64,000 bases of DNA, taken from the NCBI GenBank assembly GCA_028282725.1, contig JANQHF010000107.1, positions 62,001-126,000 on the forward strand, written 5' to 3'. Both the position numbers and the translations under genes were made by a program. Shown piece by piece: positions 34,158-52,470 of this stretch. Numbering within the stretch: the first letter of the stretch is position 1; the number at the start of each line of letters is the position of its first letter. The DNA is from Saprospiraceae bacterium (lineage in GTDB: Bacteria; Bacteroidota; Bacteroidia; Chitinophagales; Saprospiraceae). Under the pieces are notes generated by a model. The model worked only from the letters and a program-made list of their open reading frames with translations. It was not told where the DNA came from and did not search any database.

Positions 34158-36962
34158 TTAGGAAATACCATTCTTAGCAGACATCCTGCGACTGATCAAA
34201 CTCATCACAATACCCCCTAACATCATAAGACAACCCAGCCACACCAGGTTGATTCCAGGGAAAATATTGGCCTCTACAATCAGAATATCCGAGCGTGGCA
34301 CATCTTCAGCGATCAATAATTCTATCGCTTCCTGGGATCGATCATCCCTGGCTACGCGAAAGGTCATAGTCTCCGAATTGGGATCAATATTGCTGAACCT
34401 TATGTGCAAACTACTTTCCGGACTGTAATCCTTAATGCTGAATTGTTGCGCATTGCGCAAGATGAACAAAGGATTCTGGCTGATCACCATGCCGTCAGGC
34501 GTAGTGATCTCCAACTCTGCTGCCAGTGCTATATCACCTTCCCTTGGAGTGTAGTTCCTATAATTACCGCTTCGGTCAAATCCCTTCAACTGTATCTTGT
34601 AATCATTCCACACGATGAATTCATCCTGTCTGAGCCTGATGTCCTCATATTTCAGTTTGTCCTCTTCGGTAAAGATTTCGCTAAAGGCGGCTTCGGGAAT
34701 CTTTATCTTAATACCCAGCTCATTGATGACGACGGGAAACTGAAAAACCAGGGCATTTTTTAATCCTAGTCCGGGGACGACACGCATTTGCTCCCCGGTC
34801 CTTTTGATGACCACATCCAGGGGAATGCCCAGGGTCAGGTCATATTGGGTCGTATCACCGTGATCTTCCTCGCCAAAATCATAGTTAAAAATGGGTGTAC
34901 CCACAGTTGCCAGGTATTTCGATTCTTCAAATGTTTCACCGGTTTCAACCAGGTGGGAAAGGTATTTTAATGAATCTTCCAAAGCTTTTACATTCGCAAT
35001 ATCCCACATATGAGGAGGAGGGCCTGCTGCAGTGAAAACATCATAGAGCAACGTACGGTGATTACCCGGATTGGGAGCCTCTATTTTCGTAAAGTCATTG
35101 GAATAAATGACATTAGGTCTTGTGGTAAACTGGCGCAGGGGTACATTATTGGAATCAACCTTGGTAAATTCGATTTCATATTTCCTGAGATTATGCACCA
35201 AGGTGTCATCTTTATAATGCATCCAATATCCGGATGAATACCGGGGTTCATCTTTGATCAGGATCACTGCTTTATCTGCTGCGTCACCTTCGGCAAAATC
35301 ACTTTGTTCAAAGAAGGAGGAAGTAATCGTTCGATTATTCAAACCACTGATCATAATACCCAGGATCAGTACTCCGAATCCCATATGGGAAAATGCAGCA
35401 CCCGCGGTCTTCATATTTCCTTTGACAAAGACGACCAGGTAATCCAGGTTGGCGATAATGGCAAACAATCCGGCGAGCAGAAAGAAATATTGCTGCCATC
35501 CTATGATCCGAATTGCCTGACTTATTAAGATGGTCAGCACGAGACTAATGCCCAGCGTTATTCCCGTATGCTTCAGGTATTTCCTGGAATATTGCGCCCA
35601 GTTGGCTCCATGGTATCTCAGGAGGATCGCCAACCCGGTGAGCAGACCGATAAAGACGCCTATCCAGATCTGGTACTTATTGTGATGATGCATTGGATCA
35701 TCAATAGCTAAGGGTATATGATTGGGATTAAATAATTCGACAATCTTATTGTAGACCGGAAGAGAAGTGGAAGCGGTCATCAGAAAGCCGGAAAAGAACA
35801 ATATCAGTGCCCCGACAAACATCCAGAACTCACGACTCTGGATCGACTCTTCTTTTTGTATCCTGGGAATTGAACTCCTCCCGGACAAATATTTAAATAA
35901 ACCCAAACCGATAAAAAACAAGATGAACATGACGAGTTGTGTCTCGAGACCCATCGTCGTAAACGCGTGCACAGACGTATCTCCGAGAATACCGCTCCGT
36001 GTCAAGAAGGTTGAGTACAACAGCGTGAAAAACGCAAGCATGTAATAGACATAAGTTGTCTTGATCGAATACCGGGTTGAGATTGCGATCAAATTGGTAT
36101 GTATACCTGCCATAAGAAGTAGCCAGGGGACGAGCGATGTGTTTTCCACAGGATCCCATGCCCAATAGCCTCCGAAGGTCAAAGCTTCATAGGCCCATGC
36201 ACCTCCCATTAAAATTCCCAGTCCGAGGATGAAGGCATTGAAAAGGGTCCATTTGAGCAAGGGTTTTAAGATAGGGAGGTGCTCCCTGGTTGACAAACTT
36301 GCAATACTCATACAAAACGGAATGGAAGTGCTGGCAAAACCCAGGAATATAACAGGAGGATGGATGGTCATCCAGTAATTCTGTAGCAATGGATTTAATC
36401 CGCGTCCTTCGATCAGGCCCAGGTAGTCTGCATTACTGAATATTGGTGCATCATAGACATCTCGTACTAGTATGAAGGGATTGCTACCGATCTTGAAATC
36501 GTCGCCAAACGGCAGATAGATGCCGAGCAACATACTGATCAGAAATGCTTGAATGAGGATAAGAGTTACCATCGTTGGCGCTACCCACCTTCCATCTTTT
36601 TGCATGAAAATCCATCCAAGGATGACATGCCAGAACATCCAAAGCAGGAAACTGCCTTCCTGGTCCGCCCAAAATGCGGCCAAAAGATAGTGGGTCAGTG
36701 ATTCATCGGCTACCGTTCGGTATACATAGTCGTATTCATAGTAGTGATTGAACATGGCATAAAGGATCAGCCCGAATACTGTAATGATGCTAATGCCGTG
36801 AATGTGATATCCGAATTTGGCAAGTTTGGCCCAAGAATCATCCTTTTGAGATTGATAAAAGGACCAGGCGGCAAAAAGGGAACTAACAAATGCGAGTACT
36901 ACGAGAAAATGACCCAATTGGCCGAGCCATAAGTGTTCACCTATGTATGAGATTTCATCCAT
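34158..36962 (-). CDS. ccmF: Cytochrome c biogenesis heme lyase subunit CcmF (CcsA-like)
   Basis: 934 residues. About 14 membrane helices occupy residues 1-540, and the heme-handling WWD-type loop reads GGYWAWDPVENTSLVPWL near residue 270. The protein works with CcmE and CcmH to attach heme to apocytochrome c at the periplasmic face. A large soluble domain spans about 550-895 before a last helix, making the protein much longer than E. coli CcmF (about 650). This extension appears usual in Bacteroidota. It follows ccmE by 7 bp; ccmA, B, C, G and H are not in the window. Confidence 0.94.
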   Translation of the reverse strand: MDEISYIGEHLWLGQLGHFLVVLAFVSSLFAAWSFYQSQKDDSWAKLAKFGYHIHGISIITVFGLILYAMFNHYYEYDYVYRTVADESLTHYLLAAFWADQEGSFLLWMFWHVILGWIFMQKDGRWVAPTMVTLILIQAFLISMLLGIYLPFGDDFKIGSNPFILVRDVYDAPIFSNADYLGLIEGRGLNPLLQNYWMTIHPPVIFLGFASTSIPFCMSIASLSTREHLPILKPLLKWTLFNAFILGLGILMGGAWAYEALTFGGYWAWDPVENTSLVPWLLLMAGIHTNLIAISTRYSIKTTYVYYMLAFFTLLYSTFLTRSGILGDTSVHAFTTMGLETQLVMFILFFIGLGLFKYLSGRSSIPRIQKEESIQSREFWMFVGALILFFSGFLMTASTSLPVYNKIVELFNPNHIPLAIDDPMHHHNKYQIWIGVFIGLLTGLAILLRYHGANWAQYSRKYLKHTGITLGISLVLTILISQAIRIIGWQQYFFLLAGLFAIIANLDYLVVFVKGNMKTAGAAFSHMGFGVLILGIMISGLNNRTITSSFFEQSDFAEGDAADKAVILIKDEPRYSSGYWMHYKDDTLVHNLRKYEIEFTKVDSNNVPLRQFTTRPNVIYSNDFTKIEAPNPGNHRTLLYDVFTAAGPPPHMWDIANVKALEDSLKYLSHLVETGETFEESKYLATVGTPIFNYDFGEEDHGDTTQYDLTLGIPLDVVIKRTGEQMRVVPGLGLKNALVFQFPVVINELGIKIKIPEAAFSEIFTEEDKLKYEDIRLRQDEFIVWNDYKIQLKGFDRSGNYRNYTPREGDIALAAELEITTPDGMVISQNPLFILRNAQQFSIKDYSPESSLHIRFSNIDPNSETMTFRVARDDRSQEAIELLIAEDVPRSDILIVEANIFPGINLVWLGCLMMLGGIVMSLISRRMSAKNGIS

Positions 36963-36969
36963 TCAACAT

Positions 36970-37374
36970 CTACATCGCAGCTGCCTGCTTTCGGAGGGCA
37001 AGCTCTTCTTCTTTGTATTTTGAAGGACACTTCAATAACATCTCCGTGGCCTCAAATTCATTTTTATCATTCATCTTGCCTGTAACAACGATTTGCTCTG
37101 ATCGTTCAAAATCGCGTCTTTTGGGTTCGTTGATGACTACTTTTCGCTTGTTGCCCTTTTCATCCACCATGAAAAATGAAAAGAAATTAGGATCCTTCTC
37201 GGGATCATAGAGTATAGGATCCGAAAGAGAGAGTTGACCGGCGATCTTAACTCGTTTTCCCGATTTTTGAGCAGATTCAAATGATGCAAATGTGCTGAAA
37301 TCATTTGACGCGAAGACCAGGAAGACGATCCCAAGACCAAGAATCAATATTGCTGCTAAGTGAGTCCTTTTCAT
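36970..37374 (-). CDS. ccmE: Heme chaperone CcmE, CxxxY variant
   Basis: 134 residues from the ATG at 37374. One N-terminal membrane anchor (HLAAILILGLGIVFLVFA) is followed by the OB-fold domain (GKRVKIAGQLSL, VTGKMNDKNEFEATEMLLKC). CcmE normally ligates heme covalently through His in H-x3-Y (E. coli His130). Here the motif is CPSKY, Cys116 and Tyr120, the C-x3-Y form described for archaea and Desulfovibrio and, I believe, common in Bacteroidota. The covalent link would then be to Cys. Directly upstream of ccmF in one operon. Confidence 0.93.
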   Translation of the reverse strand: MKRTHLAAILILGLGIVFLVFASNDFSTFASFESAQKSGKRVKIAGQLSLSDPILYDPEKDPNFFSFFMVDEKGNKRKVVINEPKRRDFERSEQIVVTGKMNDKNEFEATEMLLKCPSKYKEEELALRKQAAAM

Positions 37375-37610
37375 GTAGAAGGTCAAATTCAATTACAAAT
37401 TTAATGTATATGACGTATGGCAAGTACCATTTATTTTGCTTTAGACGTAATCTAAATAGTAGTCTCATCTCTGGTTCCTTCCAACATGCAGGGTCTTATT
37501 GCTGAAAAATTTGACATAACAATGCGATTTTAACGATCTATATAGCCTTTATGGCAGAAATATTTTGGTGGCATGCACTCATCTTTGAGTAATATTTGGA
37601 AATTTGTAAT

Positions 37611-38291
37611 ATGAATGCATTTAATAAAGTCGTTCATCTTGAAGATGTTTCAGTTATAGCACGTGACCAGATCATTCTCAAAGAGATTCACATGGTCATC
37701 AATACCGGTGAATTCTGTTACTTACAAGGCGACACAGGATCTGGAAAATCTTCATTTCTTCAGGGGATCTATGGGTTGATGGAAATGACGGGCGCCAAGA
37801 TGAGAGTAGTCGGATTTGATTATCTTGAATTGACTTCTCAGACATTACCGGAATATCGACGTAAAATTGGTTTTATTTCCGGTAGCTATCCGTTGTTTAC
37901 GGACCAATCCGTATTCAAAAACCTGGACCGCATTCTCGCCCTAATGGATTGGGCTATTGCCAGCGAACGGGAAAAGCGGGTTAATGAGGTTCTGGATCAA
38001 TTGGGATTGAATACATATCAAGGCGAACAATTATCCGATCTTCCATCAGGGTTGCGTCAAAAAGTCGCAATCGCCCGGTCGGTGCTGAATAAACCAAGTC
38101 TCATCCTTGCCGATAATCCGATGGTTTATCTCGATAATAAAAGCACTGAGGACATTATGAATCTGTTCATTGACCTTGTAAAGAATAACAAGACCTCCAT
38201 TTTATGTTCGGTATCTGACGATTCTTTACCTTCCAAATATCCTGCAAGATCCTATCTATGTGCTGATGGAACTATTACAGAGAGTAAATGA
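37611..38291 (+). CDS. FtsE-like ABC protein lacking key catalytic residues
   Basis: 226 residues from the ATG at 37611. Overall length, order and the N-terminal VVHLEDVSVIARDQIIL match Bacteroidota FtsE, the ATPase that with FtsX controls cell-wall hydrolases at division. Walker A (GDTGSGKSS, 40-48) is intact. The Q-loop region reads IGFISGSYPL with no Gln; the signature is LPSGLRQK instead of LSGGEQQR; the Walker B Glu is Asn169 in LILADNP; and the H-loop His is Ser202 (VSDDS). ATP may bind but hydrolysis should be impaired. No ftsX is near. A possible promoter is TTTG at 37564 with TAATATTTG at 37590. Confidence 0.85.
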   Translation: MNAFNKVVHLEDVSVIARDQIILKEIHMVINTGEFCYLQGDTGSGKSSFLQGIYGLMEMTGAKMRVVGFDYLELTSQTLPEYRRKIGFISGSYPLFTDQSVFKNLDRILALMDWAIASEREKRVNEVLDQLGLNTYQGEQLSDLPSGLRQKVAIARSVLNKPSLILADNPMVYLDNKSTEDIMNLFIDLVKNNKTSILCSVSDDSLPSKYPARSYLCADGTITESK

Positions 38292-38305: not shown

Positions 38306-38854
38306 TTATCCATCCACAGGTCGCCTGGAGTTGAACTTTAATGGAATTTTAAAATAGGGATCCAATTGATCCTTGTAAAGGATAATGAACTTGATCAGAG
38401 CCCTGCTTTCCTTATACAGGCAAAGCATTCTTGCATTCGGAAATGACGTGAGACTCTCCTTCGGTGTAAAATCCGCATACATCACGAGGTCCGCGCCGAA
38501 ATAATTGTGAGCATAGCTGGCAGGATACCTGGTAAATTCTACGTATTCATTTTCGTCATTAGTTGCCAGGTGAGCAACTGTCCTCTGGATCTCAACTGTG
38601 GGAACAAACTTTTTGTGATCACTGTCTATATCAATTCTGATCTCGATATCAGGAGGACTGTGGAGAACGAGGTCATATTGCATAAAATCATCCCTGGTAT
38701 ATGGCGCAGGCTTTAACCAGCGTTCCACGGGTAAGAAGAATTCTATATCATACCGTTCCAATTTCTGGTTGAACGACTTGGTAAAGACCAGACCTGACTG
38801 ACCCGATCCGGTTATTGAAAAGAGAAGGAGTACATTTATGATTCCCGACTTCAT
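38306..38854 (-). CDS. Secreted protein of unknown function
   Basis: 182 residues. The N-terminus is a signal peptide (KSGIINVLLLFSITGSGQ). The mature part is mixed alpha/beta with several Tyr-rich strands (YDIEFFLPVERWLKPAPY, YPASYAHNYFGADLVMYADF), reminiscent of small Bacteroidota envelope proteins, but no family is recognised. It is 7 bp downstream of the DUF255 lipoprotein on the same strand, so it is probably co-transcribed, and it converges with the FtsE-like gene (14 bp). Confidence 0.75.
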   Translation of the reverse strand: MKSGIINVLLLFSITGSGQSGLVFTKSFNQKLERYDIEFFLPVERWLKPAPYTRDDFMQYDLVLHSPPDIEIRIDIDSDHKKFVPTVEIQRTVAHLATNDENEYVEFTRYPASYAHNYFGADLVMYADFTPKESLTSFPNARMLCLYKESRALIKFIILYKDQLDPYFKIPLKFNSRRPVDG

Positions 38855-51738: not shown

Positions 51739-52470
51739 ATGCAACCAATTATACGGACACATGATTTAGCCAAAACCTTTATAATGGGTACGGAAAAAGT
51801 GCGTGCCTTAAAATCAATAACCATAGACATTCACAAGAATGAATTTGTAGCCTTAATGGGTGCATCCGGATCGGGAAAGTCCACTTTAATGAACTTACTG
51901 GGTTGTCTGGACACACCTACAGGAGGCACTTATATCTTGAATGGTGAAGATGTTTCGGATTTAACAGATAATGAATTGGCCGATATTCGCAACAAGGAAA
52001 TTGGATTTGTCTTCCAGACTTTCAACTTGCTGCCCAGGCTCACAGCACTTGAAAATGTTGCTCTTCCGCTGGTCTATGGCGGGCTGAATAAATCCCGCAG
52101 AGATCAAAAGGCCGAGAATGCCCTGGTCAATGTTGGGCTTGCCGATCGAATGGACCACAAACCCAATGAGTTATCCGGTGGTCAGCGACAACGTGTGGCC
52201 ATAGCGCGTGCCATTGTCAATGATCCTGCCATCATACTTGCCGATGAGCCGACCGGTAACCTGGATACGAAGACGTCCATTGAGATCATGACGATATTTG
52301 AGAAGATTCATAGTCTCGGGAATACGATCATACTCGTTACACACGAACCGGATATTGCCGAACATGCCAGTCGCATCATTAAACTAAGGGATGGCCTTGT
52401 GGAATCCGACATCATAAATGAGAATGTGGTCAGGGCAGATGATCCCAGTCATAAGTATAACTTATCTTAA
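51739..52470 (+). CDS. MacB/LolD-type ABC transporter ATP-binding protein
   Basis: 243 residues. All motifs intact: Walker [11 protein letters not shown]-loop [18 protein letters not shown], signature [14 protein letters not shown], Walker [13 protein letters not shown] and switch VTHEPD. The family drives MacB-, LolCDE- or FtsX-type permeases that move lipoproteins or peptides or transmit mechanical force. No permease is adjacent, so its partner must be encoded elsewhere. Between gatC and pduO homologues by 5-6 bp, an unusual neighbourhood. Confidence 0.95.

Follow-up and report, generated by a model that had tools for sequence, protein, structure and literature searches.

The window (the whole stretch of DNA that was analysed, 64,000 nucleotides) carries on its forward strand, at 37611-38291, an ORF of 226 amino acids without internal stops, whose product has an ABC nucleotide-binding domain as its single domain. 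The features of the locus are the following:

34158..36962, reverse strand: ccmF, a conserved neighbour by which the orthologous ftsE locus is recognised and which lies outside the FtsEX system
36970..37392, reverse strand: ccmE, likewise a conserved neighbour marking the orthologous ftsE locus and outside the FtsEX system
37611..38291, forward strand: ftsE orthologue, 226 amino acids, ABC nucleotide-binding domain without the hydrolysis residues
37725..37754, forward strand: Walker A, QGDTGSGKSS, intact, with Lys46 at 37746-37748
37881..37883, forward strand: Q-loop position, Gly91 for Gln (FISGSYPL as compared to IVFQDFNL)
38040..38063, forward strand: signature, LPSGLRQK (residues 144-151) as compared to LSGGEQQR
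38112..38117, forward strand: end of Walker B, Asp168 kept and Asn169 for the catalytic Glu (LADNP)
38130..38135, forward strand: D-loop Leu-Asp, kept, including Asp175
38214..38216, forward strand: H-loop position, Ser202 for His (SVSDDS as compared to ATHDYR)

The window protein is an FtsE orthologue: its nearest relatives are FtsE proteins, its gene stands in the orthologous position and FtsX is encoded in the same genome. FtsE is its top NCBIfam model, with a score of 127 bits that is below the curated cut-off of 265, as are those of canonical FtsE proteins from the same family (232-235 bits). In a tree it clusters with FtsE, separately from the LolD-like ATPases, with a support of 0.86. 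Structure prediction from an alignment of 51 sequences gave a confident nucleotide-binding domain (pLDDT 92.5), for which FtsE of S. pneumoniae provided the best PDB matches, at a TM of about 0.9; this model replaced a first one, built from six sequences, which was useless (pLDDT 40). The ccmF-ccmE-ftsE order is shared by four further species of the genus and by two species belonging to a neighbouring genus. The source genome is a draft of 5.06 Mb in 139 contigs, 98.7% complete, and its named relatives within the genus are metagenome-assembled Saprospiraceae or Bacteroidetes. Adjoining ftsE, at 38306-38854 on the reverse strand, is a gene for a predicted secreted protein of 182 amino acids without a match in Pfam, a homologue of which occupies the same position in another genome (L072 in G004).

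Motif residues of FtsE in the genus and in the family

The initial annotation, made from the letters of the window, had reported an intact Walker A motif (GDTGSGKSS, residues 40-48 of the protein) together with replaced Q-loop, signature, Walker B and H-loop residues, and all of these residues were borne out at their positions in 37611-38291. To place them in the family, 58 FtsE sequences were aligned, six from the genus and 52 from other genera of the family and the order. The Q-loop Gln, the catalytic Glu and the H-loop His are present in 52/52 proteins of the other genera and in none of the six of the genus. The same holds for the intact Ser-Gly-Gly of the signature, the Ser of which is kept in one genus protein and replaced by Pro in the other five. 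In ABC proteins, the Q-loop Gln is the residue that couples the nucleotide state to the membrane subunit. A shift of the motifs in the alignment is ruled out, because the columns concerned are canonical in 52/52 sequences and in 0/6; the canonical residues are thus truly replaced. Other residues, including those that hold Mg-nucleotide, are conserved throughout: the Walker A Lys (Lys46) in all six and in the 52 sequences from elsewhere, and both Asp168 of Walker B and Asp175 of the D-loop in 6/6 of the genus. The replacing residues vary from species to species (Gly, Asp or Pro in the Q-loop; Asn or Ala for Glu; Ser or Ala for His), the most divergent species (L006) having LSSGQIQK as signature and Ala in place of the Glu as well as of the His.

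There is one degenerate FtsE in each of the six genomes, with 62-67% identity to the window protein, or 45% for the most divergent species. An assembly error, or a single odd genome, is ruled out by these six separately assembled genomes, whose proteins are 45-67% identical to that of the window. Among 398 Saprospiraceae genomes, FtsE of the degenerate type was found only in the six of the genus (E ≤ 3e-115), the next match (E 9e-64) being a canonical FtsE; when one genome per species was scanned by pattern, identities above 35% were obtained only with the five relatives. Profile searches of the draft source genome revealed no second FtsE, canonical or other, the next best match being a LolD-like ATPase with canonical motifs and 34% identity, and a canonical second copy was found in none of the six genomes. 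The suggestion that the window gene might be a paralogue beside a normal FtsE is not supported, since it is the sole FtsE orthologue found and stands at the orthologous ccmF-ccmE-ftsE locus. Elsewhere in the window, at 51739-52470 on the forward strand, there is a second ABC ATPase, of the MacB/LolD-like kind, whose motifs are fully canonical; ATPases of the source genome are not degenerate in general.

Selection on ftsE

In the two closest species, FtsE differs by 10% at the protein level (90% identity) and has a dN/dS of 0.029; the dN/dS values rest on this one pair, dS being saturated in all the others, and they are approximate because dS is high here too. For the same two genomes, dN/dS is 0.025 for the canonical LolD-like ATPase and 0.017 for UppP; FtsX evolves faster, with a dN/dS of 0.10 and an identity of 76%, as against 90% for FtsE. 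Identity of FtsE to other species is close to what is seen for the adjacent CcmF and CcmE; FtsE is faster only on the branch leading to the most divergent species (45%, versus 61-70% for two neighbours). The view that hydrolysis residues were lost selectively, rather than through decay, was already put forward from the single sequence, and it stands up to the comparison of six species, to the dN/dS of the closest pair and to the intact predicted fold. As judged from these sequences, FtsE of the genus is a putative pseudo-ATPase maintained under strong purifying selection and not a decaying gene.

FtsX and EnvC

FtsX, which the initial annotation had proposed to look for, was found in 6/6 genomes of the genus with a full-length profile. 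The idea that it was absent was discarded; a Pfam ectodomain model had found it in only 3/6. FtsX of the source genome matches a solved FtsX directly (E 7e-4), and in the three genomes where the surroundings of the gene were read it is located upstream of uppP, a gene identified by eye. Parts of the protein have changed in the genus. Among them is the stretch from TM2 to TM3 that makes up the coupling helix, and the position of E. coli FtsX Phe267, where Phe is found in 15/15 relatives, is occupied in none of the six by Phe (Ala, Val, Lys or Asp instead). The Pro that follows this position is missing from five of the six, and all six lack the C-terminal Leu-Tyr. In E. coli, Phe267 is a contact to FtsE and its mutation lowers FtsE binding (PMC11139282).

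Full-length EnvC, with a coiled coil and a LytM domain, was detected in 29 of the 34 relatives from outside the genus (E < 1e-90) and, by profile search of the drafts, in 0/6 genomes of the genus, where at E ≤ 1e-8 only matches to the LytM part were obtained, so that a coiled-coil EnvC elsewhere in these genomes was rejected as a candidate. A short EnvC orthologue occupies the place that envC has in the relatives, between a DUF4292-type lipoprotein-like gene and hflX (both recognised by eye). Five such proteins could be compared, one of them cut by a contig end; from the remaining genome, which is 76% complete, no EnvC was recovered. Two parts are conserved in the short EnvC, namely a segment corresponding to the tip of the canonical N-terminal region and, joined to it by a Pro-rich linker, the LytM domain. 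The LytM domain, at the C-terminus, is complete in 4/5 (the fifth is the protein at the contig end), and Pro makes up 6-9% of the sequence preceding it, as compared to 0-3% in the relatives. The canonical N-terminal profile matches the genus proteins only around the tip (roughly positions 112 to 170 of 284), scoring 16-26 bits in 5/5, while the best shuffled sequence reached 10.5 (10,000 shuffles, 9,039 reported). Alignment with the solved EnvC places this segment on the FtsX-binding sites 114-128 and 141-160 of the E. coli protein, and the conservation of the tip suggests that FtsX and EnvC still meet. The restraining arm (222-278) has no recognisable counterpart in the genus. In E. coli this arm is the autoinhibitor that blocks the groove of LytM (PMC7668044); activation is blocked by the FtsE mutation E163Q or by removal of the N-terminus of EnvC, and LytM as an isolated domain does not require FtsEX (PMC12505981). 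The LytM domain is without the usual zinc-ligand pattern in the genus and in the relatives alike (as seen by eye), which fits the expectation for an activator.

On the sequence comparisons, the putative motor, lever and lock are lost on the same lineage; all of these changes fall on one stem branch of one genus, and the link between them is one that we infer from a single co-occurrence.

Amidases and the distribution of the system among relatives

None of the six genomes of the genus has the strong Amidase_3 type, detected at E 1e-46 or better in those FtsEX-bearing relatives that were tested. A second Amidase_3 type is present in all the groups, and in 5/6 genomes of the genus. This second type (L225-L240), of about 420-440 amino acids and with an SGHGGPDPGA motif, is family-wide and also occurs where FtsEX is absent. 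A strict link between FtsEX and the strong amidase is weakened by one relative, G022, which keeps this type, missing from the genus, without having FtsEX; the link is therefore a loose one.

G022 and two other nearly complete genomes of the same family, G009 and G011, lack FtsE, FtsX and full-length EnvC altogether and have FtsZ, which is also present in the genus. This joint absence indicates that FtsE, FtsX and EnvC behave as one system, and FtsEX-EnvC appears to be dispensable in parts of the Saprospiraceae. In a further genome of the same order, G037 (a draft, 93% complete), FtsX and full-length EnvC were found but there was no clear FtsE (the best match had an E value of 1.6e-19), due either to missing sequence or to a true loss.

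A neighbouring genus (g58) contains two informative genomes. G062 has a canonical FtsE and a coiled-coil EnvC. G162 has, at the ccmF-ccmE-ftsE locus (G162:C6; L245, L256), an FtsE with Asp in the Q-loop, LSNGEKRK as signature, Asp for the catalytic Glu and the His kept; the coiled coil is still present in its EnvC, which scores lower with the profile (94 bits versus 145). The FtsE tree groups G162 with the genus of the window (0.81), a grouping that we distrust because of the long branch: CcmF of G162 is closer to that of G062 (76%) than to that of the window genus (69-71%). Since CcmF thus places G162 with G062, its FtsE suggests a second, separate and partial degeneration, and that loss of the motor can precede loss of the lever.

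Interpretation and rival explanations

Binding and hydrolysis of ATP by FtsE are held to be necessary for the unlocking of EnvC and for the splitting of daughter cells. The altered FtsX, the short EnvC and the missing amidase type shift the reading of the window gene from an odd enzyme to a rebuilt complex. We consider it probable, from the residues and segments lost, that FtsEX-EnvC of this genus was once an ATP-cycled switch and has become a non-cycling tether, with FtsE as a pseudo-ATPase subunit. FtsE would still sit on FtsX, with nucleotide permanently bound or no longer needed; the complex, presumably unable to hydrolyse ATP given the residues replaced, would cease to cycle; EnvC would need no unlocking, because its lock is gone; and FtsEX would act as a fixed anchor placing the LytM domain, presumably functional, at the division site. 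It is the combination of losses (motor residues, lever and lock) with retention of the parts that would hold the complex together that points to a non-cycling FtsEX anchoring LytM. A constantly active state would require another control, because in E. coli a LytM domain that escapes regulation does harm (PMC7668044, PMC12505981). A more extended proposition, to which we would give an even chance, is that of a natural FtsEX-EnvC that may work without ATP hydrolysis, its ATPase, lever and autoinhibitory lock having been lost in one lineage with a fixed LytM tether left, and an intermediate, with a dead or weak motor and the lever still present, existing in the neighbouring genus.

Other explanations may be considered. 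One is that ATP is bound and released by FtsE but not hydrolysed, dimerisation upon binding still moving FtsX, so that the complex would sense the nucleotide or be switched by its exchange. The initial annotation had similarly proposed ATP binding without turnover in a structural or signalling protein, which would be compatible with the presence of the Walker A Lys and of the Walker B Asp in 6/6 proteins. The E163Q form of E. coli FtsE, which binds ATP and does not hydrolyse it, supports activation of AmiB in vitro, and activation in V. cholerae was reported to be nucleotide-independent (PMC11139282); moreover, degenerate sites of other ABC proteins retain ATP for minutes (PMC7756269). However, the change of the signature Ser to Pro in 5/6, the loss of the Q-loop Gln in 6/6 and the disappearance of the lever in EnvC by which the movement would be transmitted make such a switch unlikely, and in vivo E163Q stops EnvC function (PMC12505981).

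That the gene is the remnant of an FtsEX-EnvC system being lost from the lineage seems quite improbable. It is true that several relatives have no FtsE, FtsX or EnvC, that the common amidase type is missing in the genus, that FtsX evolves faster and that a second partial degeneration exists next door, but the ORFs are intact in six species, FtsE has a dN/dS of 0.029 and an identity to the window protein about like that of CcmF and CcmE, and the invariant Walker A Lys and Walker B Asp and the intact predicted fold also speak against decay. We hold it to be just as improbable that FtsEX now serves a partner other than EnvC, for instance in divisome assembly, with the short EnvC drifting on its own: in its favour are the missing amidase type, the changed FtsX C-terminus and the lower conservation of FtsX as compared to FtsE in the closest two species, and against it is the conservation, in the short EnvC, of the very segment that aligns with the FtsX-docking tip.

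Comparison with known systems

FtsEX-EnvC of E. coli, a type VII ABC mechanotransmission system, likewise comprises orthologues of FtsE and FtsX, and an EnvC with an FtsX-docking segment (assigned here by alignment) and a non-catalytic LytM domain. The system of the genus differs in that FtsE lacks the Q-loop Gln, the catalytic Glu and the H-loop His, that neither the long coiled coil nor the restraining-arm region is present in EnvC, and that the FtsX contact residues are changed. The laboratory mutant E163Q also has its catalytic Glu replaced and Walker A intact, but FtsE of the genus is natural and fixed, has in addition lost the Gln, the His and mostly the signature Ser, and has partners changed to match. 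The catalytic Glu is lost, often together with changes of the His and of the signature, in the degenerate sites of CFTR, TAP, ABCC and Pdr5 as well; these keep nucleotide binding, and only one of the two sites is degenerate, the other one being at work (PMC7756269). In contrast, the sole FtsE of the genome is the degenerate one, so that in a homodimer both sites would be so. The literature searched, which consisted of open-access papers, yielded no description of a naturally occurring FtsE like this one. The genus may be regarded as a natural experiment in which the parts of the machine that depend on the motor can be told from those that do not, and the prediction would be that, with the restraining arm lost, FtsEX is required for position and not for power. 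A further term of comparison is provided by the canonical FtsEX-EnvC systems of other Saprospiraceae: they belong to the same family, and the neighbouring genus shares the ccmF-ccmE-ftsE locus and the gene order around envC, but they have the FtsE motifs (52/52) and a coiled-coil EnvC.
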